A DNA stretch of 24,688 nt from a virus. Shown here piece after piece: positions 3,283-21,252 of the stretch (position 1 is the stretch's first letter; each line of letters starts with the position of its first letter). The notes below the pieces were generated by a model. The model had not been told where the DNA came from, made no database searches, and saw only the letters and a list, made by a program, of their open reading frames with translations. A program made the position numbers and the translations under genes. The DNA is taken from positions 1 to 24,688 of the IMG/VR virus record IMGVR_UViG_3300040806_001388; one strand, written 5' to 3'.

Positions 3283-3951
3283 TTAGTGTGAAAGGAATCG
3301 AACAGTCTTTTGAGTTGTCCAGCACAAGCCACAATCGGCGCAGGACTTTACTTTTCCAGTTTGCTCGGGGCAAGTAAAAGAGGAACCCTCGAAAGATTCT
3401 TCCGCAGCATACGATTGGAATGAATCCATCTTATCATAAGATTCATTCTTCGATAGACGGATATTACATCGGTCTGCGAATCGCATATTGAGAAGGCGAA
3501 TCTCATTATAGATGTTTCCCTTGCTCCGCGCAGTATAACCGAATAGCGCAAGCTTGTCTCCCCACTTGATCATTTGATCCGCCCAAAAGCGAACATAGGG
3601 GACGGAATAGAAATCACCTAGAACGTGCAATCGAATTAGAATGCCTTGCTTATGCTTTTTCATTAGCAATTCGATTTGCTTATTCAGGTTGTGCATTAGA
3701 TTGCGCGTATCGTATCGAAGCGCAAACGGCATGTTATCCCCATAGCAATCGTTCCAATGGTGGCACGATTTAGGGCACGTTGCGCGCTCTTGAAGCGAGA
3801 TAGAATAGATGCGCTTACCCTTATGCTTAGATGCCGTGATAACGTATCCGAGTTTGGCATTGTTCGATCCTGGTTTCAGGACCGAAAGATCGGAAGGCTT
3901 GACGGATTTGCGGTAGCGTGTGTGCGCGGGGCGCTTCAAGGTCTGATTCAT
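3283..3951 (-). CDS. GP88-like cysteine-rich phage protein, 222 aa
   Basis: The arrangement NAKLGYVITASKHKGKRIYS, then TCPKSC...CYGDN, then ILIRLHVLGDFYSVPYVRFW and a C-terminal CADCGLC cluster matches the phage 'gene product 88' family as I know it. That family is typified by a mycobacteriophage protein with conserved CP-x-x-C and HxxGDF motifs. The Cys clusters suggest a bound metal or iron-sulphur centre; the biochemical role is unknown. It is the longest gene of the minus array and the first of its cassette. Its start is fixed by a leaderless-type promoter (TATAAT, six bases, ATG). Confidence 0.7.
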   Translation of the reverse strand: MNQTLKRPAHTRYRKSVKPSDLSVLKPGSNNAKLGYVITASKHKGKRIYSISLQERATCPKSCHHWNDCYGDNMPFALRYDTRNLMHNLNKQIELLMKKHKQGILIRLHVLGDFYSVPYVRFWADQMIKWGDKLALFGYTARSKGNIYNEIRLLNMRFADRCNIRLSKNESYDKMDSFQSYAAEESFEGSSFTCPEQTGKVKSCADCGLCWTTQKTVRFLSH

Positions 3952-3957
3952 GCGTGT

Positions 3958-3985
3958 ATTATATCACACTCCGCCGAGTTTTCAA
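3958..3985 (-). promoter_or_regulatory. Leaderless promoter of the GP88-like gene
   Basis: TTGAAA, 16-base spacer, TATAAT, then six bases to the ATG at 3951, so the expected transcription start is the A of ATG. It lies just downstream of a cassette-boundary hairpin element. Confidence 0.75.
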
Positions 3986-4000
3986 GGAGAAAGTGGAGGA

Positions 4001-4110
4001 AAATAAAAAAAAGATTTTGCTTGACACGACGTAAACCCTTGTGAAATAAGGACTTAGCGCGGAGCCGCCGCCCGCTCCGCTTATAAAGCCCCGTAGAACC
4101 CCAACTTACG
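4001..4110 (-). terminator. Cassette-boundary element (tandem hairpins)
   Basis: Reading the minus strand: a GC hairpin (GCGGAGC/GCTCCGC), then TAAGTCCTT/AAGGGTTTA pairing with two wobbles, then a T-rich stretch (CTTTTTTTTATTTT), then the next promoter. It separates the tmRNA-like RNA from the GP88-like cassette and probably terminates transcription. Confidence 0.65.
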
Positions 4111-4137
4111 TCGGGCAAATTTTCTTGAGAATTGTTT

Positions 4138-4220
4138 TGGTGGAGGTGGAGGGATTCGAACCCTCGTCCGAGAAGGTTCCCGCTTTGGGCTTTCCAACTC
4201 GTCAAAACCAGTACACCCCC
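4138..4220 (-). ncRNA. Miniature tmRNA-like RNA (tRNA-like domain only, 83 nt)
   Basis: The 5' end GGGGGUGUACUGGUUUUGAC matches the tmRNA 5' consensus (GGGG..G....GGUUUCGAC), and its last 32 bases, GGACGAGGGUUCGAAUCCCUC then CACCUCCACCA, match the tmRNA 3' end. The acceptor stem is a full 7 bp with G3-U70, the alanyl-tRNA synthetase identity pair; CCA is encoded. The T arm is perfect (GAGGG/CCCUC, loop UUCGAAU). As in tmRNA there is no D stem. The hundreds of bases of tag-coding and pseudoknot RNA that a true tmRNA carries are replaced by about 30, which may form a CGGGA-ACCU-UCUCG hairpin. It is not a normal tRNA: no five-pair anticodon stem with U33 can be drawn. It follows a 78-aa gene with no promoter of its own, and a boundary element follows it. 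It may be charged with alanine or bind SmpB, or it may be a remnant. Confidence 0.75.
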
Positions 4221-4228
4221 GAAGGGTG

Positions 4229-4252
4229 GGGGAGAGGTCGAAACCCCTCCCC
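4229..4252 (-). other. GC-rich hairpin just upstream of the tmRNA-like RNA
   Basis: In minus-strand RNA GGGGAGGGG pairs with CCUCUCCCC (one G-U wobble) around a UUUCGA loop. It lies between the stop of the 78-aa gene and the RNA's 5' end. It may direct processing, protect the RNA or attenuate read-through. Confidence 0.6.
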
Positions 4253-4258
4253 GATCAT

Positions 4259-4495
4259 CTAGCGACTACCGCCGCCTTGAGTGGCAGCGTGAGCAGCCTG
4301 ACGACCAACATGGCGACCGCCAGCATACTCGCGAGGAAGTAGACGGCGCAGAGACTTGTATGCCTCTAGCGCGTTATCGACATCAGCCGAGCTAGCCTCG
4401 GGGTTGTGATAGATGTCTGCGAAAAGTTCACCTGCCTGGACAGAGAGACCTTGAATTTTCGCCGCGAGGGCGTTGCTGTAAAAGTTATCGTTCAT
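4259..4495 (-). CDS. Small hypothetical protein, 78 aa
   Basis: MNDNFYSNALAAKIQGLSVQ begins a mainly helical protein whose last 25 residues are Arg/Gly/His/Gln-rich (REYAGGRHVGRQAAHAATQ), suggesting an unstructured nucleic-acid-binding tail. A leaderless promoter fixes the start. The tmRNA-like RNA lies 38 bases past its stop and appears co-transcribed with it. The basic tail makes an RNA-related role conceivable, but no family is recognised. Confidence 0.7.
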   Translation of the reverse strand: MNDNFYSNALAAKIQGLSVQAGELFADIYHNPEASSADVDNALEAYKSLRRLLPREYAGGRHVGRQAAHAATQGGGSR

Positions 4496-4501
4496 GTGGG
4501 T

Positions 4502-4530
4502 ATTATACCTCAGAAGAGAAGAGAAGTAAA
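4502..4530 (-). promoter_or_regulatory. Leaderless promoter of the 78-aa gene and tmRNA-like RNA
   Basis: TTTACT, 17-base spacer, TATAAT, six bases to the ATG at 4495. No Shine-Dalgarno lies between the box and the start. Confidence 0.7.
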
Positions 4531-4548
4531 GAGAAAAGTGGGAGAAAT

Positions 4549-4773
4549 TTACCAGTCGCAGCCGAAGTCGTTTTCACACTCGAATTGCTCCTCATAGAAG
4601 CTATCGAGGAAGGCATCCTCAGCGTACCCGTAGGACTCATCCATGCCCATACCCGCAGAGGTGAAGGCGGATTCATCATCCCAGTCGAGAACATCATCGT
4701 CGAAGTCCTCGTCGGGTTGGGTGTAGCAGAAATCGAAGTCCTCTTCGTTATCGTAGTCGTTCATGTTTTCCAT
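4549..4773 (-). CDS. Extremely acidic small protein, 74 aa (DNA-mimic candidate)
   Basis: Counting residues gives 17 Asp and 11 Glu out of 74, with no Lys, Arg or His. It also has many Phe, Tyr and Trp (DEDFDDDVLDWDDE is typical). This composition is that of phage DNA-mimic proteins such as T7 Ocr or some anti-restriction and anti-CRISPR proteins, although I recognise no homology to any. The start at 4773 is set by a leaderless promoter; an upstream in-frame ATG at 4986 would place the promoter inside the gene. It has its own promoter within a four-gene cassette. Confidence 0.7.
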   Translation of the reverse strand: MENMNDYDNEEDFDFCYTQPDEDFDDDVLDWDDESAFTSAGMGMDESYGYAEDAFLDSFYEEQFECENDFGCDW

Positions 4774-4779
4774 GTGTGT

Positions 4780-4808
4780 ATTATACCCTAGAGAGAGGTG
4801 AAAGGCAA
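4780..4808 (-). promoter_or_regulatory. Leaderless promoter of the acidic protein gene
   Basis: TTGCCT, 17-base spacer containing CTCTCTCTAG, TATAAT, six bases to the ATG at 4773. Confidence 0.75.
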
Positions 4809-4814
4809 GAGAAA

Positions 4815-5051
4815 TCAGAGAGAAATGAGGTGGCGGATAGCCGAAAAGGGAAGCTCGCAACCCTCGCTCTCCCAGCGGTTTACGATTGCTTGAATGTGAT
4901 AGTGAGCGAGCGAGTCGGGCATATCCAACCCGTGGACGCTGTAGTCCGCGCAGGCATCCCGATAGGGTGCCCAGCTCAACCCGCAAGCGGAGTCGTCAAT
5001 GGCAAGGAGAAGAGCAGCGAGCTTGCTGGGCATATGAGGTGTTTGCTTCAT
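4815..5051 (-). CDS. Small hypothetical protein, 78 aa
   Basis: MKQTPHMPSKLAALLLAIDD begins a soluble-looking protein with a YRDACADYSVHGLDMPD segment. An ATG at 5060 is also in frame, but it is part of the -10 box itself (TATAATGG), so the real start must be the ATG at 5051, seven bases past the box. Family not recognised. Confidence 0.65.
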   Translation of the reverse strand: MKQTPHMPSKLAALLLAIDDSACGLSWAPYRDACADYSVHGLDMPDSLAHYHIQAIVNRWESEGCELPFSAIRHLISL

Positions 5052-5058
5052 GTGTTCC

Positions 5059-5086
5059 ATTATAACCTATTATCGGCAGAATGCAA
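5059..5086 (-). promoter_or_regulatory. Leaderless promoter of the 78-aa gene at 5051
   Basis: TTGCAT, 16-base spacer, TATAAT, seven bases to ATG. The spacer (TCTGCCGATAATAGG) is nearly identical to that of the promoter at 6694-6721, so the two promoters are copies of one another. Confidence 0.7.
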
Positions 5087-5105
5087 GGGTAAACTTTAGG
5101 AAATC

Positions 5106-5201
5106 CTAGAGAATCGCGCAGAGTTGGAAGAGAACTCCGAACGCGAGGAAGATACCGACGATCTGAATGATGTGGAGCAGGTTCACTAGTCTAACTTTCA
5201 T
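5106..5201 (-). CDS. Single-span membrane peptide, 31 aa
   Basis: MKVRLVNLLHIIQIVGIFLA continues hydrophobic to the end (FGVLFQLCAIL), giving one transmembrane helix with a short basic N-terminus. Although tiny, it has its own promoter placed exactly as for its neighbours (TATAAT, six bases, ATG) and is the first gene after a boundary element. Other cassettes also carry very short hydrophobic peptides. Confidence 0.65.
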   Translation of the reverse strand: MKVRLVNLLHIIQIVGIFLAFGVLFQLCAIL

Positions 5202-5207
5202 GCCCCC

Positions 5208-5235
5208 ATTATACCACACTTTGGCGAGAATGCAA
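5208..5235 (-). promoter_or_regulatory. Leaderless promoter of the 31-aa membrane peptide
   Basis: TTGCAT, 16-base spacer TCTCGCCAAAGTGTGG, TATAAT, six bases (GGGGGC) to the ATG at 5201. Confidence 0.75.
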
Positions 5236-5239
5236 GGGG

Positions 5240-5349
5240 AAAAGAAGAAAAAGATTTTGCTTGACAGGTCATAAACCCTTGTCAAATAAGGACTTAGCGC
5301 GGAGCCGCCGCCCGCTCCGCTTATAAAGCCCTGTAGAACAAGGACTTAG
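5240..5349 (-). terminator. Cassette-boundary element (tandem hairpins)
   Basis: Same architecture as at 4001-4110. A TAAGTCCTTG arm, the GCGGAGC/GCTCCGC hairpin, the TAAGTCCTT/AAGGGTTTA hairpin (loop ATTTGAC) and an alternative TTGACAAGG/CCTGTCAA stem are followed by CTTTTTCTTCTTTTCCCC and then the next promoter. Confidence 0.65.
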
Positions 5350-5392
5350 GAAGAAAAGTTTTTTGAAGAAAATAGAAGCTGGAGCCAAGTTC

Positions 5393-5530
5393 CCCAGCAT
5401 ATAACTATTATTGCACTCTCGACTTGGCACCCGTATGCATCCGAACGCGAGAGGTGGGGAGCGACCCCGTGCTAACCCTCCCATAAGGGAGGCGCTTTGA
5501 GCTTAATAACCTATTTATACTCGCTCAAAC
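5393..5530 (-). other. Highly structured unrecognised stretch at a cassette end
   Basis: Several perfect hairpins follow each other on the minus strand: CTCG/CGAG (5520-5533), CCTCCC-TTAT-GGGAGG, GGGG-TCGCT-CCCC, CTCTCG/CGAGAG around a 27-base loop, and GCTGGGG/CTCCAGC around a seven-base loop. No cloverleaf or known RNA family fits, and the one long frame through it has no ribosome-binding site or promoter. It occupies the cassette-end position taken by the tmRNA-like RNA elsewhere, so it may be another small RNA. Confidence 0.4.
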
Positions 5531-5537
5531 GAGTTGA

Positions 5538-5762
5538 CTACGCTTGCGTCATATATCGGTGATTCACACCGTTACCGCTAGTCCATTGCCGCGAGTTGCG
5601 ATAATGACGGTTCCACGCTTTCTTAGTAGCGTTGAGCGTACCTTGGTAGGTATAGCTTTGAGTTCGCAGATCGAAGATACGATAAGTGATGTTCCCATCA
5701 AGTTCGATGCGGGTCATGACTGCGTTCTGGTTCGAGCGGACAATGTTAGTGAAAATGTTCAT
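5538..5762 (-). CDS. Small hypothetical protein, 74 aa
   Basis: Begins MNIFTNIVRSNQNAVMTRIE and is basic and Asn/Tyr/Arg-rich (KKAWNRHYRNSRQW), with a strand-like centre (NITYRIFDLRTQSYTYQG). Unlike most of the array it has a Shine-Dalgarno (AAAGGA, 10 bases before ATG) and no adjacent -10 box, so it is probably read from the upstream gene's transcript. It is the last protein gene of its cassette. Confidence 0.65.
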   Translation of the reverse strand: MNIFTNIVRSNQNAVMTRIELDGNITYRIFDLRTQSYTYQGTLNATKKAWNRHYRNSRQWTSGNGVNHRYMTQA

Positions 5763-5858
5763 GTGTTTAGTTTCCTTTTGAGGGTGTAGTTAGTTAGTGT
5801 TTGGGCATCACACCCAATCGTAGGTTTCGAGGGATAACCTATAACCCTTTCTCTTATA

Positions 5859-6212
5859 CTAGGCTTTCGCTTCGATAGCCTTGTTCAGTTTGGTTTCGAT
5901 ATCCTCTTTGATAGCGTTCTGCTCATCGAGAATGTATTGAGCGTTACGCTCTTCTTGGTCGATCTTTTCGATCCAAGCGTAGTGCTTGGCACGACGAGCT
6001 TCAGCAGACTGAGGACCGCTTCCGAGAATCTTCTTGGCAGCGATAATGCTCTTCTTGATCTCACCCAGCTCTTCGACGAGCGGGGCAAGTTCGGGATCGT
6101 TTGCCGCATCGGCTTTCAGTTGCTTCATGCGAAGCCGTTCAAGCTTGGCTTCGTGCTCGGCAATAAGTTCAGCGGGAGTGCGTTGAGTGCGTTTCTTAGT
6201 GGTGTTTTCCAT
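5859..6212 (-). CDS. Coiled-coil hypothetical protein, 117 aa
   Basis: After a basic N-terminus (MENTTKKRTQRTPAELIAEH), residues about 15-65 and 75-117 form two long charged helices with heptad-like Leu/Ile spacing, consistent with a coiled coil. No enzymatic motif is present. A leaderless promoter fixes the ATG at 6212. About 95 bases separate it from the next gene, more than elsewhere in the array. Confidence 0.7.
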   Translation of the reverse strand: MENTTKKRTQRTPAELIAEHEAKLERLRMKQLKADAANDPELAPLVEELGEIKKSIIAAKKILGSGPQSAEARRAKHYAWIEKIDQEERNAQYILDEQNAIKEDIETKLNKAIEAKA

Positions 6213-6219
6213 GTGTGTT

Positions 6220-6248
6220 ATTATACCTTAGAGGGTAGCGTTTGTCAA
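6220..6248 (-). promoter_or_regulatory. Leaderless promoter of the coiled-coil gene
   Basis: Consensus TTGACA, 17-base spacer, consensus TATAAT, seven bases to the ATG at 6212. It is one of the two best sigma70 matches in the array. Confidence 0.8.
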
Positions 6249-6267
6249 TAGGAAAGTGGAGAAATTT

Positions 6268-6483
6268 CTAGAAGTATCCTTCGTCGTAGAGTTCAGCGAA
6301 CATGGGGTCATCATCGGCCCATGCATCGCAGCAGTCGGTGAACGCTTCAACGGGCGAGAAGCCGTTAGCGAACAGGTCGTGAATCATCGTCAGATCAGGC
6401 ATATCTTCGTGCCCGAAGCCGAACGTGGCAAGGCAAAGGGAATCGAGTTGGTTGTACCAGTCTTCGTAGGTCATCTTGTTCAT
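6268..6483 (-). CDS. Small acidic phage protein, 71 aa
   Basis: MNKMTYEDWYNQLDSLCLAT begins an acidic, helix-rich protein with a FANGFSPVEAFTDCCDAW block and a DDDPMF turn. The pattern looks like a conserved small phage protein, but I cannot attach a family name. A leaderless promoter sets the start, and its -35 box lies within the 3' end of the preceding gene. Confidence 0.7.
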   Translation of the reverse strand: MNKMTYEDWYNQLDSLCLATFGFGHEDMPDLTMIHDLFANGFSPVEAFTDCCDAWADDDPMFAELYDEGYF

Positions 6484-6489
6484 GCGTGT

Positions 6490-6518
6490 ATTATACCCTA
6501 TTGGTTAGAGGTTGTCAA
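6490..6518 (-). promoter_or_regulatory. Leaderless promoter of the 71-aa gene
   Basis: TTGACA, 17-base spacer, TATAAT, six bases to ATG. The -35 overlaps the last codons of the upstream gene. Confidence 0.8.
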
Positions 6519-6687
6519 GCGTCTTTTGGAGATTTTGCTTCATCTTTCGACGAACATACCTGCGGTCAAGGGGCTTCGCCTTGCTCGGCTTCACGCGCCA
6601 CAGGTTACAGCACTTACATCCGAATCCGCCGATGCCGTGGCGAGCGCGGAGAGCGCGGTCTGTGTTCGTGTCGTTCATCGTCTTCAT
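6505..6687 (-). CDS. Small basic protein with a CxxCC-like motif, 60 aa
   Basis: MKTMNDTNTDRALRARHGIG is followed by GFGCKCCNLW and a strongly basic tail (KPSKAKPLDRRYVRRKMKQN). Three closely spaced Cys and many Arg/Lys suggest metal or nucleic-acid binding. It is first in its cassette, with a leaderless promoter after a boundary element. Confidence 0.65.
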   Translation of the reverse strand: MKTMNDTNTDRALRARHGIGGFGCKCCNLWRVKPSKAKPLDRRYVRRKMKQNLQKTLDNL

Positions 6688-6693
6688 GCCCCC

Positions 6694-6721
6694 ATTATAC
6701 CCTATTATCGGCAGAAAGCAA
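6694..6721 (-). promoter_or_regulatory. Leaderless promoter of the 60-aa gene
   Basis: TTGCTT, 16-base spacer, TATAAT, six bases (GGGGGC) to ATG. Confidence 0.75.
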
Positions 6722-6740
6722 GGAGCAACTGAAGGAAATA

Positions 6741-6820
6741 AAATCTTTTTTTCTTCTTGACAGGTCGTAAGTGCTTGTCAAATAAGGACTTAGCGCGGAG
6801 CCGCCGCCCGCTCCGCTTAT
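6741..6820 (-). terminator. Cassette-boundary element (tandem hairpins)
   Basis: The GC hairpin is followed by TAAGTCCTT/AAGCACTTA (one C-C mismatch) and a perfect TTGACA/TGTCAA inverted repeat. Here the tract beyond is A-rich on the minus strand, so simple intrinsic termination is less convincing than at the other copies. Confidence 0.55.
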
Positions 6821-6847
6821 AGAAGCAAGAACTTTCTTGGATTTATT

Positions 6848-6898
6848 TTAGAGTTCGTAGAGTACGAACAGCAGGATAAGAAGACCCCAGACAGCCAT
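6848..6898 (-). CDS. Possible 16-aa hydrophobic peptide
   Basis: MAVWGLLILLFVLYEL starts on the stop of the preceding gene (TAATG overlap), a classic coupling signal, and is almost wholly hydrophobic. It ends its cassette just before a boundary element, like the 21-aa peptide at 7529-7594. Its size limits certainty. Confidence 0.4.
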   Translation of the reverse strand: MAVWGLLILLFVLYEL

Positions 6899-7161
6899 TA
6901 CTCGTTCCTAGTGTGATGATCCCGCAGGAATCCATACTCTTGGTTCGACCGCTGGAGTCGAGCAAGATAATCATCGTAGTTCTCACGAACCTTGATGATA
7001 GCGTCCGTGTGAGACGGAGCAGAGACTCGGATGAGGTTTCCCTTGTTTCCAAGGTGAAGATTGAACCACTTGGTAACTCCATCATCACGAAGGTTAGCGG
7101 AGAGGAAGAGAGCGTCGATGGTCGTGCCATCGGTAAGATCGAGGTTGTTCATCTTGTTCAT
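6898..7161 (-). CDS. Small hypothetical protein, 87 aa
   Basis: MNKMNNLDLTDGTTIDALFL begins a mixed strand/helix protein (VTKWFNLHLGNKGNLIRVSA, then a charged helix). The pattern suggests a small alpha/beta fold like others in the array. The start is fixed by a leaderless promoter. Family not recognised. Confidence 0.7.
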   Translation of the reverse strand: MNKMNNLDLTDGTTIDALFLSANLRDDGVTKWFNLHLGNKGNLIRVSAPSHTDAIIKVRENYDDYLARLQRSNQEYGFLRDHHTRNE

Positions 7162-7167
7162 GCGTGT

Positions 7168-7196
7168 ATTATACCAGAGTTAGGGGAGAAGGTCAA
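7168..7196 (-). promoter_or_regulatory. Leaderless promoter of the 87-aa gene
   Basis: TTGACC, 17-base spacer, TATAAT, six bases to ATG. It overlaps the end of the upstream gene. Confidence 0.8.
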
Positions 7197-7374
7197 GGGT
7201 TTTGTAGGTATTTTTCTTTTCGATGTGAACTTCTTTGTGCTCGAACCCGAGATCCTCTACCAGATGATAGAGACGCTTTCCCGCGCTCTCTTCGTCAAGG
7301 TGGACCGTATCAACGTACTGCTGAGAGTTGAGCGTCATGAGGACCAACCAAACCGAGTTCTGTTCTTTCTTCAT
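7180..7374 (-). CDS. Small protein, 64 aa, paralogue of the gene at 8121-8315
   Basis: MKKEQNSVWLVLMTLNSQQY then a charged helix and LVEDLGFEHKEVHIE. It aligns along its whole length with the 64-aa protein at 8121-8315: a hydrophobic strand, a D-[ST]-[IV]-H segment, ES, a basic helix, LV-[ED]-D-x-GF, then EV-x-IE. Both are first genes of their cassettes. The fold is probably strand-helix-strand; function unknown. Confidence 0.7.
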   Translation of the reverse strand: MKKEQNSVWLVLMTLNSQQYVDTVHLDEESAGKRLYHLVEDLGFEHKEVHIEKKNTYKTLDLLP

Positions 7375-7380
7375 GCGTGT

Positions 7381-7408
7381 ATTATACCACACTCTGGCGA
7401 GAATGCAA
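7381..7408 (-). promoter_or_regulatory. Leaderless promoter of the 64-aa gene at 7374
   Basis: TTGCAT, 16-base spacer TCTCGCCAGAGTGTGG, TATAAT, six bases to ATG. It is almost identical to the promoter at 5208-5235. Confidence 0.8.
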
Positions 7409-7414
7409 GGGGAA

Positions 7415-7497
7415 AACAAAAAAAAGAATTTGCTTGACACGACCTAAGTGTCTGTCAAATAAGGACTTAGCGCGGAGCCGCCGCCCGCTCCGCTTAT
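7415..7497 (-). terminator. Cassette-boundary element (tandem hairpins)
   Basis: The GC hairpin is followed by a perfect TTGACA/TGTCAA inverted repeat and CTTTTTTTTGTTTTCCCC on the minus strand, then the next promoter. Confidence 0.65.
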
Positions 7498-7528
7498 CGG
7501 AGCAAGGGAATTCCGAGAAAACTTTGCC

Positions 7529-7594
7529 CTACCCTACTAGCGCATAGAGCACAAGCCCCAGCACTAGTAGAGCGAGAACGCGCTTATGAATCAT
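7529..7594 (-). CDS. Small membrane peptide, 21 aa
   Basis: MIHKRVLALLVLGLVLYALV has a basic N-terminus and a single hydrophobic span. Its ATG overlaps the preceding stop as ATGA, indicating translational coupling. It is the last gene of its cassette. Confidence 0.5.
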   Translation of the reverse strand: MIHKRVLALLVLGLVLYALVG

Positions 7595-7896
7595 GCGCCT
7601 GCCTCGAAGTGATTAGGAGTTCCGCTTTGGTTTTTGATTGACCAAGCATCATAAAGACTAATAGCTCCAGCTCGAACGGCAGGACGCTCATTACTTGCCA
7701 CGAATTCGAATTGACGACGCAAGAGTTTTGCTTCATCTTCCGTGAGGGCAATGTCTACCTCATCCTTATCGCTATTCTTCCTGTAAATGCTGACCAGGAC
7801 TGAGAAGATAGGCGTAGCATCTTCATAACACTCTGCGAGCATCATTCCAATCGTAGCCTCAAGCTTTTCCATTTTCATGTTTTGGTAACGAATCAT
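7591..7896 (-). CDS. Hypothetical protein, 101 aa
   Basis: Mostly helical, with the segments EATIGMMLAECYEDATPIFS and ALTEDEAKLLRRQFEFVASN. It starts one base past the preceding stop with a good GGAG (seven-base spacer) and no promoter of its own, so it is expressed with the 63-aa gene. Family not recognised. Confidence 0.7.
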   Translation of the reverse strand: MIRYQNMKMEKLEATIGMMLAECYEDATPIFSVLVSIYRKNSDKDEVDIALTEDEAKLLRRQFEFVASNERPAVRAGAISLYDAWSIKNQSGTPNHFEAGA

Positions 7897-7897
7897 T

Positions 7898-8089
7898 CTA
7901 GTTCTCCATTTGGTGGTAGTAGAGAGAAGGGCTTTCCTCGAACTGTTCGATAACTTGATCGAAGGGCTTATCGAGGTAGATGGACTTGATCACGTTGTCT
8001 CCATCGAAGAGACTCACCATAGTCGAGTCGCCAGCAGAGGTAAAGAGTAGCGCGGAGTACTTGTCCATGATGTAGCGTTTGATCTTCAT
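7898..8089 (-). CDS. Small hypothetical protein, 63 aa
   Basis: MKIKRYIMDKYSALLFTSAG starts at a leaderless promoter. The pattern is strands (ALLFTSAGDSTMVSLFDG) followed by an acidic helix. The stop precedes the next gene by one base, giving a two-gene operon. Confidence 0.7.
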   Translation of the reverse strand: MKIKRYIMDKYSALLFTSAGDSTMVSLFDGDNVIKSIYLDKPFDQVIEQFEESPSLYYHQMEN

Positions 8090-8095
8090 GTGTGT

Positions 8096-8124
8096 ATTAT
8101 ACCTTAGAGAGAGGAGAAGGTCAA
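8096..8124 (-). promoter_or_regulatory. Leaderless promoter of the 63-aa gene
   Basis: TTGACC, 17-base spacer with CTCTCTCTAAGG, TATAAT, six bases to ATG. Confidence 0.8.
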
Positions 8125-8315
8125 GAAGAAAGTTGAGAAAGAGAGCAGATAGGACGAGGTTCGATCTCGACCTCACCTTCTGGGAATCCACAATCGTCTA
8201 CGAGGTACTTCTTCCGCCTTTCGGATGACTCCCTCGAATCATGGATGGAGTCGAGGCACTCATAGTTATCAGCGGCGAGGAGGACGACGTACAAGGTGAG
8301 AGGGGTGTCTTTCAT
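8121..8315 (-). CDS. Small protein, 64 aa, paralogue of the gene at 7180-7374
   Basis: MKDTPLTLYVVLLAADNYEC then a charged helix and LVDDCGFPEGEVEIE. It aligns without gaps with the 64-aa protein at 7180-7374. Both are first in their cassettes with closely related promoters, so gene and promoter may have duplicated together. Confidence 0.7.
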   Translation of the reverse strand: MKDTPLTLYVVLLAADNYECLDSIHDSRESSERRKKYLVDDCGFPEGEVEIEPRPICSLSQLSS

Positions 8316-8321
8316 GCCCCT

Positions 8322-8349
8322 ATTATAACACACTCTCGAAGGATTGCAA
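8322..8349 (-). promoter_or_regulatory. Leaderless promoter of the 64-aa gene at 8315
   Basis: TTGCAA, 16-base spacer TCCTTCGAGAGTGTGT, TATAAT, six bases to ATG. Confidence 0.75.
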
Positions 8350-8352
8350 GAG

Positions 8353-8452
8353 GAAAAAAGAAAAAGATGTGAACGTAAGTGCTTGCTAGATAAGGACTTA
8401 GCGCGTAGCCGCCGCCCGCTCCGCTTATAAAGCCCTGTAGAACAAGGACTTA
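8353..8452 (-). terminator. Cassette-boundary element (tandem hairpins)
   Basis: It has the TAAGTCCTTG arm, a GC hairpin with one changed base (GCTACGC) that weakens one pair, TAAGTCCTT/AAGCACTTA, then CTTTTTCTTTTTTCC on the minus strand. The TTGACA/TGTCAA part is lost. Confidence 0.6.
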
Positions 8453-8468
8453 TAAGCGAAAAGATTTT

Positions 8469-8762
8469 CTAGTTTGTGCTTGCTTCCCTAGGGAGATTCC
8501 AAGGGTAGAGCGTCAGGTATAGATCAGAAATAGTTTCGAATTGGCTACCGTAAAAGTAGCCCAATTCAGAGACGAGACCGTGAACCATTCCAAACATCTC
8601 GATCTCGCCATCGGGACGCTCTTCGATCTCGTAGATCTCCCAAGCCCATCCTGACGTACTGTGGAAGACTTCCCCAAGGGGTTTCTTCGGCTTTTCGCCA
8701 TCAGTCGAGCCGATAGGCGTCTTCGCCATCTGGGCGAGTTCTTTCAGTTCGTTCATTTCCAT
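8469..8762 (-). CDS. Small acidic hypothetical protein, 97 aa
   Basis: MEMNELKELAQMAKTPIGST leads into a strand-rich middle (GWAWEIYEIEERPDGEIEMF) and ends with an aromatic segment. It starts two bases after the preceding stop with AAGGAG seven bases before ATG and no own promoter. Family not recognised. Confidence 0.7.
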   Translation of the reverse strand: MEMNELKELAQMAKTPIGSTDGEKPKKPLGEVFHSTSGWAWEIYEIEERPDGEIEMFGMVHGLVSELGYFYGSQFETISDLYLTLYPWNLPREASTN

Positions 8763-8764
8763 AA

Positions 8765-8968
8765 CTACTCTCCTTGAGTGTTAGCGTAGAAGAATTTGGC
8801 AATGTCGTCATCCGTGAGTCCATCGCCCATGTGATCGTACATATCCTGCTCACAAGCGAGGCAGTATGCCCCAGGCTCGTAGTGGGAGGTCGTGCAAGCC
8901 TTGCAAGCCTTTTCGGCAACGGATTCGAAGAGGTCGTTCATCATTTCGAGGTATTCGATTTTCTTCAT
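8765..8968 (-). CDS. Small zinc-ribbon-like protein, 67 aa
   Basis: MKKIEYLEMMNDLFESVAEK is followed by CKACTTSHYEPGAYCLAC, two CxxC pairs ten residues apart, the spacing of a small zinc ribbon. An acidic helix follows (GDGLTDDDIAKFF). The start is set by a leaderless promoter; a longer frame from 9127 would run through that promoter. A DNA- or RNA-binding or adaptor role is possible. Confidence 0.7.
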   Translation of the reverse strand: MKKIEYLEMMNDLFESVAEKACKACTTSHYEPGAYCLACEQDMYDHMGDGLTDDDIAKFFYANTQGE

Positions 8969-8974
8969 GCGTGT

Positions 8975-9003
8975 ATTATACCCTAGAGAGAGGTTCGGGT
9001 CAA
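8975..9003 (-). promoter_or_regulatory. Leaderless promoter of the zinc-ribbon-like gene
   Basis: TTGACC, 17-base spacer with CTCTCTCTAGGG, TATAAT, six bases to ATG. Confidence 0.8.
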
Positions 9004-9203
9004 GAGAATTCGGGAAGAAGTTCTTCGATGTAGATGGAGAGAGGACCATCAGGGTCTTCGACTGAGAGAAGGTCGGTGAGGTCCTCTTTGATGTCGAGGG
9101 CCTCTTGCTTGGTCGCGCACCTGGCATAGGGCCAGGAGACGAGCTTGTCGTCGTTGTGAATGCGGACTTGCCAATAATGGGTAGTGATCGGGGTCAACTT
9201 CAT
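9000..9203 (-). CDS. Small hypothetical protein, 67 aa
   Basis: MKLTPITTHYWQVRIHNDDK then a helix (TKQEALDIKEDLTDLLSV) and a final strand (LSIYIEELLPEFS), similar in layout to the 64-aa paralogue pair though sequence similarity is weak. It is first in its cassette with a leaderless promoter. Confidence 0.65.
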   Translation of the reverse strand: MKLTPITTHYWQVRIHNDDKLVSWPYARCATKQEALDIKEDLTDLLSVEDPDGPLSIYIEELLPEFS

Positions 9204-9209
9204 GCGTGT

Positions 9210-9237
9210 ATTATACCATGTCCTGGTGAGAAAGCAA
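9210..9237 (-). promoter_or_regulatory. Leaderless promoter of the 67-aa gene at 9203
   Basis: TTGCTT, 16-base spacer TCTCACCAGGACATGG, TATAAT, six bases to ATG. Confidence 0.75.
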
Positions 9238-9240
9238 GGG

Positions 9241-9350
9241 GAAAAAAGAAAAAAGATTTTGCTTGACGAGTCGTAAGTGCTTGCTACATAAGGACTTAGC
9301 GCGGAGCCGCCGCCCGCTCCGCTTATAAAGCCCTGTAGAACAAGGACTTA
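9241..9350 (-). terminator. Cassette-boundary element (tandem hairpins)
   Basis: Full-length copy with the TAAGTCCTTG arm, GCGGAGC/GCTCCGC, TAAGTCCTT/AAGCACTTA and CTTTTTTCTTTTTTCCCC on the minus strand. Confidence 0.65.
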
Positions 9351-9359
9351 GAGCGTCAA

Positions 9360-9641
9360 TTATTTTTCGTATTGAACACGGTATTCGTCAGCACGATACC
9401 AACGGTCGCCACAGCACTCACAGTCCAGACCGCTCTCGATGCCTTGGAAGTAGATGCCAGCGTATTTCTGGACAAGCTCGTCAGCCTCATCGGTAGACTC
9501 AGCCATGACCCAAACATCGACCTGCTGGTCTTGCCAATCGTAGGCAGCGAACACACCACCGAGGTCAGCGGGACCAGTCCACTCGGGGTAGTCATAGCTA
9601 CCGCCGCTGCTGTTCTGAGTGTAGTAGAACTTCTTTTTCAT
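9360..9641 (-). CDS. Conserved phage protein with a CECCGDRWY motif, 93 aa
   Basis: MKKKFYYTQNSSGGSYDYPE, a WVMAESTDEADELVQKYAGI helix, then YFQGIESGLDCECCGDRWY. The combination of a Tyr-rich start, 'ADEA' helix, GIYF and D-C-x-C-C-G-D-R-W matches an uncharacterised small protein family I associate with many large phages. The Cys triplet could bind metal. The start is set by a leaderless promoter. Confidence 0.7.
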   Translation of the reverse strand: MKKKFYYTQNSSGGSYDYPEWTGPADLGGVFAAYDWQDQQVDVWVMAESTDEADELVQKYAGIYFQGIESGLDCECCGDRWYRADEYRVQYEK

Positions 9642-9647
9642 GCGTGT

Positions 9648-9676
9648 ATTATATCAGGCGACCTTGGTGCGGACAA
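9648..9676 (-). promoter_or_regulatory. Leaderless promoter of the 93-aa gene
   Basis: TTGTCC, 17-base spacer, TATAAT, six bases to ATG. The upstream gene's stop abuts the -10 box, so the -35 lies inside that gene. Confidence 0.7.
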
Positions 9677-9833
9677 GGTTTTTATTGGATTTTTTGTACT
9701 CTCGAACGAGTCGAGTGATGTACTTACCAACGCCCTTGTGGGTCTTGGTGCTACCGTCCTCGAAGGTGACGGTGAGGGAGTAGTAAGCCCCGAAGCCGAG
9801 GAGACGTTGTTCGTGGAGGTGGGTAACTTTCAT
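9654..9833 (-). CDS. Small basic hypothetical protein, 59 aa
   Basis: MKVTHLHEQRLLGFGAYYSL, strands (LTVTFEDGSTKTHKGVG) and a basic C-terminal helix (KYITRLVREYKKSNKNLVRT). It is the first gene of the whole minus-strand array, with a leaderless promoter. Basic charge suggests nucleic-acid contact, but this is a guess. Confidence 0.65.
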   Translation of the reverse strand: MKVTHLHEQRLLGFGAYYSLTVTFEDGSTKTHKGVGKYITRLVREYKKSNKNLVRTKVA

Positions 9834-9839
9834 GCGTGT

Positions 9840-9867
9840 ATTATACCATGCCGAGACGAGAATGCAA
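9840..9867 (-). promoter_or_regulatory. Leaderless promoter of the 59-aa gene
   Basis: TTGCAT, 16-base spacer TCTCGTCTCGGCATGG, TATAAT, six bases to ATG. Confidence 0.75.
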
Positions 9868-18279: not shown

Positions 18280-21252
18280 ATGGCTGAATCTAGAGATAAA
18301 CTCGTATATATAGTCCTTGATGAGTTAAATCGTCCAATATCTCTTGGAGGTATGGAGGATGGAGATTTTGTATCTGATAGTGTGCTTCCAGAAGGCGTGC
18401 GAGATGTTTGCTCAGTAGTAATAGATACTAGTGGTGATTGGACTTCAGTGTATACTACAGTAGAAGCAGCAAGTGGTATTTGGGATATTGGAGGAGGTAC
18501 TCCAATTGATATTGCTGATTGGGAGCAAGTTTCTACTGTTGTTGTTGATTCTAGTGGTGATTGGGATAATACATTTACTAAGGTAGATGCTGCCTCTGGA
18601 GATTGGGACGGAGCATATGCTAGTGCATTAACCGCTAGTGCTGTAATTAGCGATAACCGACTCGTTTGGGAGTCTGGAGGATCTCCATCAGCAACAGGTT
18701 TTGAAGATTGGAATAATGCTTTTAATAAAGTAGATTCAACTAGTGATGGGTGGGACGGTACTTATACCTCCGTAAATGGTGCTAGTGGAACTTGGGACGG
18801 TACTTATACCTCCGTAAATGGTGCTAGTGGAACTTGGGACGGAGTATATGCTTCTGTAAACCCTGTTAGTGGAACTTGGGATGAAGCAGCAACGATACTG
18901 GACACAAGCGATGCTAACTTCCTTGGAGGATTAACTCCTACTCTTTCCAATGATTTAACTATAAATGATGGAATACAGATAGAAGGTCTAGGAGTTCTTT
19001 CTTTAAGTTCTCAAGGAAATCTTTCTTTAAGTTCTGGGGGTTCCATATTTGTTAGTTCTACAAATAAGATAGATATAAACCCAAACGCTAATGTAAACTT
19101 AATTCCTACTACTGGAAATGTTAGGTTAGTTCCAGATGTTGGAAATATACAAATAAAATCAGTTGATTCTGTATTCCTTTCTGGAGTAGGTGTTAGTTGT
19201 ATTTCTAATGATGGAAACTTTACAATTGGAACTAATGCGGATAATCAAGAATTTGCTTTAAAAGATACTCTAAACGACGCTATTTCAACCAAATCTACAG
19301 TAGACGCCAATAGTGCTAACTGGATTAATGCCTTTACTAAGGTAGATTCCGCTAGTGATGGATGGGACGGTACTTATACCTCCGTAAATGGTGCTAGTGG
19401 AACTTGGGATAATGCCTTTACTAAAGTAAATTCCGCTAGTGATGGATGGGACGGTACTTATACCTCCGTAAATGGTGCTAGTGGAACTTGGGATAATGCC
19501 TTTACTAAGGTAGATTCCGCTAGTGATGGATGGGACGGTACTTATACCTCCGTAAATGGTGCTAGTGGAACTTGGGACGGTACTTATACCTCCGTAAATG
19601 GTGCTAGTGGAACTTGGGATGCTGCTTATTCTAGCGATTTATTCCCATCAGCAGCAGGTTTTGATGGTTGGAATAGTACAAAATCTACTGTAGATGCCGA
19701 TAGTGCAAACTGGGATGCTGCTTATACTGCTATAAACGATAACGCTGATACTTGGACTTCAACATTTAACACTACTTTAAATACAAGTGCTACTTGGGCA
19801 TCTAGTGTAGCAAGCTCTATTGGGTGCTATATAGGATCTTCTGTTGCTATTTCTGGATTTGGAGATGGAGATACTGATTTTACACCAGGAAATAATCAGT
19901 ATCTTGCTCTTAATACTAAGGAAGAGAGGATGACTTGGAGATATCCTAGATTTATCCAAAGTGCAAATCAATTATTAGTAGAAACAATACCAGAAGTAGA
20001 GGACTTACCTAATGTAGAATCATTAGGTATGGATGTTGGTTTATCGTTAAGTGGTTGGTTCCAACAAACAGAATATGATATTACAACAACTCTTGGTCTT
20101 CCCGATAATTATAGTATAGATATTGATTTTGATCAATCTCAACAACAAACAGCAAATCTAACAGCAGTATCCGCTAATGGATCTACTTTGGGACTTAACT
20201 TCAGTAATATAGCCCCAGGAAGAAGAGTAAACTTAACATTAATTAATCCAACATATACTATAACTACTATCCCACTAACCGCTGGAGCTACTTGGATGAC
20301 CACTCCTCTAAGTAAGATGGGAATTGGAGAAGTTGTAGAAGTTATAATTTATTCTAGGGGATCTACTGCTTCTGATTTATACTTGTACTCTACACAAATA
20401 GAATCAGATGAAGTAGTTAATGAATCTGGTGTTGCTGGTGCTACTGTTACGGATGCATTAGATCAACTTAGTTCCGATATTGTAACAGATCACGGTGCTC
20501 TTACTGGTTTATCAGACGACGATCACCCACAATACGTTCTGAATTCCACCAACCTTGAACTAAGCTCTGCTTTTGAGAGTGTATCCTCTACTGTTTTTGA
20601 TAACTCTGGGTCTTGGGGAGGTGGAGGAGGAGTAACAGATCACGGTGCTCTTACTGGTTTATCGGACGACGATCATACTCAATACCATAATGATACAAGA
20701 GCAGATACTTGGCTTGCTACCAAAGGTTCTGATAATTTAGATAATGATTCTGGTGTTGCTGGTGCTACTGTTACAGCAGCTTTAGACCAACTAGATTCAG
20801 ACATAGCAGCAAAGAGAGATGCAGCATCATACATAGCTAGGCAAAACTCCGCTACTCAAGACCTAAACGGAACTAATGTTGCAGCAAATTGGGGCCAAGC
20901 AGTAGCATCTAACGGTTCAGATTTATCGTGGGACGTAGCCAATCCTAGTAGAATCAGTATAGCAACAACTGGTGACTATAGAGTTACATTCAACTTAGCA
21001 GCTACTAGTACAGCAGTAAGATCAAACATTATCGCTAGATTACGAGTAAATGGAACTACATTTAGAGGCCCAATAGGTTCTAGTGGTTATATTAGAAGCA
21101 GTAGTTCTCATGATAATGCTAGTGTTCATGCTGCTTTTATTCATCCATTTACTGCTGGTGATTACATAGAGATAGTAGCAAACCGAGAAGCTGCCGCTGG
21201 AAACTGGACTACGGTAAATGGGGCTTGTTCTATTTCATTAGAAAAGTTATAG
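18280..21252 (+). CDS. Repeat-rich tail fibre with C1q-like tip, 990 aa
   Basis: Residues about 45-220 and 348-445 are built of 14-residue units starting with Trp, of two types: WDGTYTSVNGASGT and WDNAFTKVDSASDG. They alternate like a fibrous shaft. DHGALTGLSDDDH, a motif common in phage tail fibres, occurs at about residues 737 and 787, each near a copy of SGVAGATVTxALDQL. The last 145 residues (SYIARQNSATQDLNG onward, with GDYRVTFNLAATST and GDYIEIVANRE) have the jelly-roll pattern of a C1q/TNF-like trimer, probably the receptor-binding tip. It starts two bases after the previous gene with no obvious Shine-Dalgarno. Confidence 0.8.
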   Translation: MAESRDKLVYIVLDELNRPISLGGMEDGDFVSDSVLPEGVRDVCSVVIDTSGDWTSVYTTVEAASGIWDIGGGTPIDIADWEQVSTVVVDSSGDWDNTFTKVDAASGDWDGAYASALTASAVISDNRLVWESGGSPSATGFEDWNNAFNKVDSTSDGWDGTYTSVNGASGTWDGTYTSVNGASGTWDGVYASVNPVSGTWDEAATILDTSDANFLGGLTPTLSNDLTINDGIQIEGLGVLSLSSQGNLSLSSGGSIFVSSTNKIDINPNANVNLIPTTGNVRLVPDVGNIQIKSVDSVFLSGVGVSCISNDGNFTIGTNADNQEFALKDTLNDAISTKSTVDANSANWINAFTKVDSASDGWDGTYTSVNGASGTWDNAFTKVNSASDGWDGTYTSVNGASGTWDNAFTKVDSASDGWDGTYTSVNGASGTWDGTYTSVNGASGTWDAAYSSDLFPSAAGFDGWNSTKSTVDADSANWDAAYTAINDNADTWTSTFNTTLNTSATWASSVASSIGCYIGSSVAISGFGDGDTDFTPGNNQYLALNTKEERMTWRYPRFIQSANQLLVETIPEVEDLPNVESLGMDVGLSLSGWFQQTEYDITTTLGLPDNYSIDIDFDQSQQQTANLTAVSANGSTLGLNFSNIAPGRRVNLTLINPTYTITTIPLTAGATWMTTPLSKMGIGEVVEVIIYSRGSTASDLYLYSTQIESDEVVNESGVAGATVTDALDQLSSDIVTDHGALTGLSDDDHPQYVLNSTNLELSSAFESVSSTVFDNSGSWGGGGGVTDHGALTGLSDDDHTQYHNDTRADTWLATKGSDNLDNDSGVAGATVTAALDQLDSDIAAKRDAASYIARQNSATQDLNGTNVAANWGQAVASNGSDLSWDVANPSRISIATTGDYRVTFNLAATSTAVRSNIIARLRVNGTTFRGPIGSSGYIRSSSSHDNASVHAAFIHPFTAGDYIEIVANREAAAGNWTTVNGACSISLEKL
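18709..18876 (+). repeat. 42-bp tandem repeats in the fibre gene, array 1
   Basis: Four 42-bp units begin with TGG at 18709, 18751, 18793 and 18835. Units 2 and 3 are identical, and the flanking units are diverged versions. Confidence 0.85.
19321..19614 (+). repeat. 42/84-bp tandem repeats in the fibre gene, array 2
   Basis: Seven 42-bp units begin at 19321, 19363, 19405, 19447, 19489, 19531 and 19573. They form three nearly identical 84-bp pairs (type A then type B) plus one extra B. B units are identical to those of array 1, which implies recent copying between the arrays. Confidence 0.85.

Follow-up and report, generated by a model that had tools for sequence, protein, structure and literature searches.

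By its sequence, an 83-nt RNA encoded by a T4-like phage is a stand-alone tRNA-like domain (TLD) of transfer-messenger RNA (tmRNA), which lacks the mRNA-like domain and is here called mini-tmRNA. It lies on the minus strand at 4138..4220 of the window, the whole 24,688-nt stretch of viral DNA that was analysed. As judged from contigs and isolate genomes, RNAs of this kind are carried by many bacterial viruses, and their shared architecture bears compensatory base changes and an alanine identity pair found in every aligned member.

Identity and parts of the mini-tmRNA

The RNA (window 4220..4138, RNA positions 1-83) reads GGGGGUGUACUGGUUUUGACGAGUUGGAAAGCCCAAAGCGGGAACCUUCUCGGACGAGGGUUCGAAUCCCUCCACCUCCACCA and holds both ends of a tmRNA, namely a G3.U70 acceptor, a D-like loop, a T arm and an encoded CCA. 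An earlier note, made from the DNA letters, had placed both ends at 4138-4220, and these coordinates proved exact. The covariance-model check that it proposed gave a match of 71.3 bits to the Rfam tmRNA model RF00023 (E=3.7e-26; gathering cut-off 47), with an alignment that spans model positions 1-374 with the middle deleted, and the tmRNA model is the top match within its Rfam clan. In addition, model R1, a covariance model built from 28 other viral sequences with the window excluded, matched the window at 69.9 bits (E=1.9e-17). The acceptor GGGGGUG/CACCUCC, which had been described as perfect, pairs at 7/7 positions with G3.U70 included and is followed by A73 and the encoded CCA. The D-like region is CUGGUUUUGAC, and the 3' half carries GGAC and then the T arm GAGGG-UUCGAAU-CCCUC. 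Between GAC and GGAC stands a folded insert in place of the resume codon, tag template and pseudoknots; the earlier estimate of about 30 bases compares with a measured 31 nt. In tmRNA, the D-like loop and the T loop together form the SmpB-binding elbow. The parts are as follows.

4138..4220, minus strand: mini-tmRNA, complete TLD without mRNA-like domain or pseudoknots (RF00023, R1, covariation)
4214..4220, minus strand: acceptor stem 5' strand GGGGGUG, with G3 of the G3.U70 alanine identity pair (sequence)
4201..4209, minus strand: D-like loop GGUUUUGAC, tmRNA-type (sequence, Rfam alignment)
4194..4200, minus strand: P2 stem 5' strand GAGUUGG (fold, covariation)
4177..4193, minus strand: apical motif AAAG-CCC-AAAGC-GGG-AA, replacing the pseudoknots and tag template (fold, R1, family motif count)
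4170..4176, minus strand: P2 stem 3' strand CCUUCUC (fold, covariation)
4166-4169, minus strand: GGAC preceding the T arm (sequence)
4149..4165, minus strand: T arm GAGGG-UUCGAAU-CCCUC (sequence, Rfam alignment)
4138..4148, minus strand: acceptor 3' strand CACCUCC, discriminator A73 and encoded CCA (sequence)

The minimum-free-energy fold contains the expected acceptor, P2 and T arms; P2 in the window RNA has five standard pairs, and its two remaining positions are U-U. Folding energy was ordinary against shuffles (z -1.0) and is uninformative alone; the case for the mini-tmRNA is built on homology and covariation.

Measured against a full tmRNA, the TLD is present (G3.U70 acceptor, tmRNA D loop, T arm, CCA) and the mRNA-like domain (resume codon, tag frame, stop) is absent, the insert consisting of a paired stem and a small hairpin. 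Pseudoknots PK1-PK4 are likewise absent from the 31-nt insert, which is too short for them. A frame running from an alanine codon to a stop is inconsistent across the family, and any such frame occurs in only 22 of 80 inserts; a tiny hidden tag (Ala-Ala from GCC GCA in the apical motif) was rejected, as it has no consistent in-frame stop. The features of a TLD-only tmRNA of the type described from mycobacteriophage DS6A, namely contiguous tmRNA ends, no coding region and location in a phage genome, are all found. Identification as tRNA-Ala was rejected, since the RNA has no anticodon arm or D stem and the tmRNA model fits best; ARAGORN reported neither a tRNA nor a tmRNA in the window RNA.

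Conservation and covariation

Eighty loci carry a terminase at least 76% identical to that of the window. In seven relatives the sequence extends 9 kb or more upstream of the terminase, and six of these carry the mini-tmRNA; in L208, whose upstream flank is sufficient, it is absent. The syntenic copies lie on the strand opposite the terminase at distances of 4.5 to 8.4 kb upstream of it, compared with 8 kb in the window, and all six encode CCA. Their P2 stems differ from that of the window and mostly still pair, and acceptor pair 6-67 changes from U-A in the window to C-G in L175 and L183. Conservation in related phages with compensatory stem changes, which had been suggested as a check, was thus found, in P2 and the acceptor.

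Across the wider family, compensatory changes are numerous in an alignment of 54 representatives, for which RNAalifold predicted P2 and the T arm. Among 28 sequences with 5' parts of equal length, the paired fraction of cells was 97.2%, compared with 40-56% when partners were slid, and covariation scored 0.707 as opposed to 0.12 at most. An alignment of 81 model matches, which include three low-scoring extras, at least two of them tRNA-Ala, gave 97.3% paired cells against 42-58% in slid controls and a covariation score of 0.708 against about 0.1; this alignment was fitted to the model, whereas those of 54 and 28 sequences are independent (MAFFT). Compensatory changes affect all seven P2 pairs as well as the variable acceptor and T-stem pairs. 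Acceptor pairs 4-69, 5-68 and 6-67 vary freely between pair types, whereas G1-C72, G2-C71 and G3.U70 are constant, the last in 80 of 80 aligned rows. G3.U70 together with A73 is the identity signal for alanyl-tRNA synthetase (AlaRS) (PMC3968760). The typical family apical motif is AAAG-CCG-CACG-CGG-A; an A-rich/CC motif is present in 64 of 80 members and an inner hairpin in 73 of 80.

Extent of the family

Viral contigs were scanned with a pattern combining the tmRNA D-loop and T-arm motifs with 15 to 45 free bases between them, leaving acceptor and insert open. At least 120 stretches matched, and among the matches listed 85 distinct sequences were extracted. Within these listed sequences, the acceptor pairs at 7/7 positions in 81 of 85, G3.U70 is present in 81 of 85 and A73 in 84 of 85; the acceptor lay outside the search pattern. 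Although the span between D loop and T arm was free to vary by 30 bases, it measures 56-60 nt in 74 of the 85 listed sequences. A sub-scan confined to one T-stem type yielded 27 stretches, and 19 had already been found, which puts the rough total of contigs matching the strict pattern at about 170; a scan for a T-stem-GA variant gave no further members. Among the matches listed, about 80 distinct TLD-only forms compare with nine in the curated database (PMC11915505).

In bacterial and archaeal genomes, 257 Gb in all, the same pattern matched 24 stretches, of which five are true mini-tmRNAs (L126, L135, L138, L142 and L145), four of them on contigs of metagenome-assembled genomes and L145 on a Parafrankia contig. 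The remaining 19 are mostly 3' parts of normal tmRNAs, together with one tRNA-Arg and one unrelated sequence. With five true members in 257 Gb of cellular DNA, the family is therefore essentially viral. Chance matches were rejected as the whole explanation: a background exists, but the acceptor and G3.U70 checks separate the true members. The viral matches failing these checks were L006, L036, L049 and L114; L006 is tRNA-like, and L049 fits model R1 with a shifted 5' end at 82.8 bits. L016 carries a small deletion, and ARAGORN long-tmRNA calls that overlap the mini-tmRNA in L054 and L094 look spurious.

Cultured phages and genomic context

Unannotated mini-tmRNAs lie amid dense tRNA genes in the Streptomyces phages LuckySocke, BRock, pSt2308, Alone3 and Shaeky, and GiJojo has the identical RNA. 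In LuckySocke, BRock and pSt2308 an RNA ligase is encoded nearby, and the phage tRNA arrays are nearly complete. Stenotrophomonas virus Jojan60 has one unannotated mini-tmRNA. The family thus spans phages of Actinomycetota and Pseudomonadota as well as uncultured T4-like phages. Isolates growing on Streptomyces lividans make the mini-tmRNA directly testable.

Exactly one tmRNA match over the cut-off, the mini-tmRNA itself, was found in 35 of 35 mini-tmRNA records. No SmpB was detected in the sequence of the same 35 records, with bacterial controls positive, so that the mini-tmRNA would have to use host SmpB. Streptomyces phage Lululemon carries a full-length tmRNA and a separate, diverged mini-tmRNA; the latter, at 86069-86148 (L239 1478-1554), has lost GGAC, and the other site is at 96322-96590 of the same record.

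Comparison with known systems

The earlier note knew of no stand-alone TLD of this kind; this part of it did not hold, as the TLD-only tmRNA of DS6A and those of some mitochondria and plastids precede the present RNA. The DS6A RNA (tmID 11587; Mao et al. 2009) is cited in PMC4131195 and PMC11915505. According to PMC4131195, citing Mao 2009, a DS6A-like TLD-only RNA strongly inhibits E. coli tmRNA whether chargeable or not, perhaps through titration of SmpB. Like it, the mini-tmRNA is phage-encoded and contains little beyond the TLD; DS6A, compared here by description only, was reported as a single case, whereas the present family is broad. tmRNAs without a coding sequence also occur in jakobid mitochondria and Mallomonadaceae plastids (PMC11915505). 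These are similarly reduced to the TLD with no tag reading frame, but they are organellar, endogenous and reductive rather than mobile or phage genes. The tmRNA database holds 97,179 unique sequences, nine of them classed as 'standard, no CDS' (PMC11915505).

The mini-tmRNA shares with the standard tmRNA (RF00023) the G3.U70 acceptor, the D-like loop, GGAC with the T arm and the base of P2, but has no resume codon, tag frame, H5 or pseudoknots and measures about 80 nt rather than 230-400. Phage-borne full-length or permuted tmRNAs (Mycobacterium Bxz1-type, Streptomyces BE phages, Melnitz) are likewise often found among tRNAs; they keep the tag template, which the mini-tmRNA does not. Its closure of the TLD by a short hairpin resembles engineered TLDs (the 2CZJ TLD-SmpB crystal, the 4ABR ribosome complex, and Shimizu and Ueda 2006), although these are artificial and the phage RNA is natural, with a longer conserved P2 and an apical motif. 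As described in PMC3929946, PMC3968760 and PMC2481249, engineered TLD constructs work with SmpB and no template. Ribosome entry and peptidyl transfer need only TLD and SmpB (PMC2481249, PMC3929946), and crystals of alanyl-TLD.SmpB.EF-Tu on a stalled ribosome have been obtained (PMC3968760). Furthermore, accounts citing Shimizu and Ueda 2006 describe mRNA-free polyalanine synthesis by an engineered TLD with SmpB, the chain being handed from TLD to TLD (PMC2481249, PMC3929946). No description of a broad phage family of TLD-only tmRNAs was found in the openly licensed literature. The principle is known from DS6A and organelles; what appears new is the breadth, the conserved architecture and the tractable isolates.

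Proposed action and alternative explanations

The preferred reading, given a probability of about 0.55, is that the mini-tmRNA is charged with alanine and, with SmpB and EF-Tu taken from the host, gains access to stalled ribosomes and prevents tagging. Its 5' end would be matured by host enzymes; CCA, encoded in the window RNA, would be added by the host in most relatives; and host AlaRS would charge it through G3.U70/A73. The charged RNA would bind host SmpB and EF-Tu.GTP and enter stalled ribosomes with an mRNA-less A site, or might merely tie up SmpB, and host tmRNA would thereby be displaced, pre-empted or outcompeted. If accommodated, it would take the nascent chain and add alanine, and with no template no degradation (SsrA) tag would follow. 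After that the ribosome may stay blocked, alanine may be added repeatedly, or a different rescue factor may take over. The net effect would be host trans-translation suppressed or short-circuited during infection. We infer expression, charging, SmpB binding, the effect on tagging and the benefit to the phage.

A decoy role is plausible given the DS6A-like precedent. Since DS6A-like inhibition is reported to be independent of charging, a pure decoy would need no invariant G3.U70, which counts against it; the invariance suggests more than passive titration, and the mini-tmRNA probably undergoes charging and ribosome entry. A decoy would also have to be highly expressed, because host tmRNA is usually present in abundance, a further point against. 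Lululemon, with its full tmRNA and diverged mini, fits poorly with simple antagonism, and L208, which lacks the mini-tmRNA, counts against the proposed action.

Template-free rescue or tailing is a less probable alternative, in which the mini-tmRNA and SmpB enter stalled ribosomes, add one or more untemplated alanines and free the ribosomes without tagging phage proteins, passing them to ArfA/ArfB-like factors or peptidyl-tRNA hydrolase. The invariant G3.U70 and A73 argue that charging matters, carriage among phage tRNAs would suit a translation supplement, and polyalanine synthesis with an engineered TLD is reported in PMC2481249; however, that synthesis came from an artificial in vitro system, and the inhibition reported for the DS6A-like RNA in E. 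coli points to net antagonism. A more specific form, in which alanyl-mini-tmRNA with host SmpB and EF-Tu repeatedly enters mRNA-less A sites as a natural tailing RNA, is doubtful. RqcH alanine tails belong to bacterial ribosome quality control. If it acted in this way, the RNA would extend stalled phage and host proteins with untemplated alanines and form an RNA-based counterpart of RqcH tails, phage-encoded across several host phyla. An RNA-processing or end-protecting element, whose tRNA-like fold serves as a cleavage signal that trims and protects the upstream small-ORF transcript, would agree with the position of the mini-tmRNA behind a 78-aa ORF downstream of one candidate promoter and with a leader hairpin common to some relatives, but it leaves the invariant G3.U70, A73 and tmRNA-type D loop unexplained, as well as occurrence in tRNA arrays with other neighbours, and is improbable.

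Very improbable is a decayed tmRNA or attP relic of integration or recombination with host ssrA, as the earlier note had also argued. The gene ssrA is a common integration site (PMC11915505), and of 44 records two, L052 (G019) and L069 (G027), have a tyrosine integrase gene about 1 kb away from the mini-tmRNA; both are possibly temperate carriers with the mini-tmRNA linked to an ssrA integration site. Integration, however, leaves the 3' part only, whereas here both ends are intact with an acceptor of 7/7 pairs. Purifying selection is shown by the compensatory changes together with the near-fixed insert length, and the covariation contradicts a relic. Moreover, a tyrosine integrase was found in four of 44 records and gave no match in the other 40, many records being fragments, and isolate BRock is described as virulent (PMC7453282). 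Least probable of all is half of a split or permuted tmRNA whose template half would be encoded at another site of the phage genome. The window covers a 24.7-kb fragment, and two-piece phage tmRNAs exist (PMC9004378; also seen in the control searches), but here P2 connects the 5' half of the TLD to the 3' half, which is not the arrangement of permuted genes, and the complete LuckySocke, BRock, Shaeky and Jojan60 records hold no second tmRNA match over the cut-off. The permuted two-piece model (RF04321) scored 23.1 bits against a cut-off of 47, and the gene order is standard. A hidden mRNA-like segment or permuted partner, a finding that the earlier note had named as a refutation of its reading, was looked for; neither a second half nor a full tmRNA is present within the 24.7-kb record, a partial phage genome, and no such partner occurs in complete phage genomes such as BRock.

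Retention by phages of only the part that binds AlaRS, EF-Tu and SmpB suggests ribosome rescue as a target during infection, and mini-tmRNAs would be naturally occurring candidate inhibitors of a pathway that is being pursued as a drug target.

Surroundings in the window

The window belongs to a tailed, T4-like phage with a terminase, gp20 portal, UvsW helicase and T4-type baseplate protein; among the matches listed, its portal is less than 40% identical to that of every named phage. The neighbours of the mini-tmRNA are the following.

4502..4530, minus strand: sigma-70-like promoter TTTACT-17-TATAAT (consensus match only)
4259..4495, minus strand: 78-aa ORF, immediately upstream of the mini-tmRNA
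4221..4252, minus strand: leader with hairpin GGGGAGGGG-UUUCGA-CCUCUCCCC (listed at 4229-4252), then CACCC-UUC
4030..4108, minus strand: GC-rich hairpin repeat (family D5), downstream of the mini-tmRNA

The candidate promoter could drive both the 78-aa ORF and the mini-tmRNA, which probably share one transcript; Pfam and PHROG searches with the ORF gave no match. The leader hairpin lies directly 5' of the mini-tmRNA and is partly kept in L150 and L183, that is, in some relatives only, and its CACCC-UUC could pair with the acceptor 5' strand. The GC-rich hairpin repeat, GCGGAGCGGGCGGCGGCTCCGC, has six window copies between small genes (4030-4108, 5270-5348, 6766-6844, 7443-7521, 8374-8452 and 9272-9350) and is possibly a terminator or processing element.

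The motif TATAAT-N6-ATG occurs 15 times in the window against 0.45 expected, with 14 occurrences on the minus strand within 3949-9845. At these 14 promoters 6 nt separate the -10 box from the start codon, a spacing that suggests leaderless mRNAs for this block of small genes. A Pistol ribozyme lies at 5471-5534 on the minus strand (65.5 bits); in L150, L175, L177 and L226 one is found at a distance of about 1 to 3 kb from the mini-tmRNA, and L208 has the ribozyme and lacks the mini-tmRNA. On the plus strand, the ORF at 518-1363 encodes a beta-solenoid repeat of YdcK type with an 18-nt period and, after it, a DUF3310 domain, and a 990-aa ORF at 18280-21252, possibly a tail fibre, contains 42-nt (14-aa) repeats.
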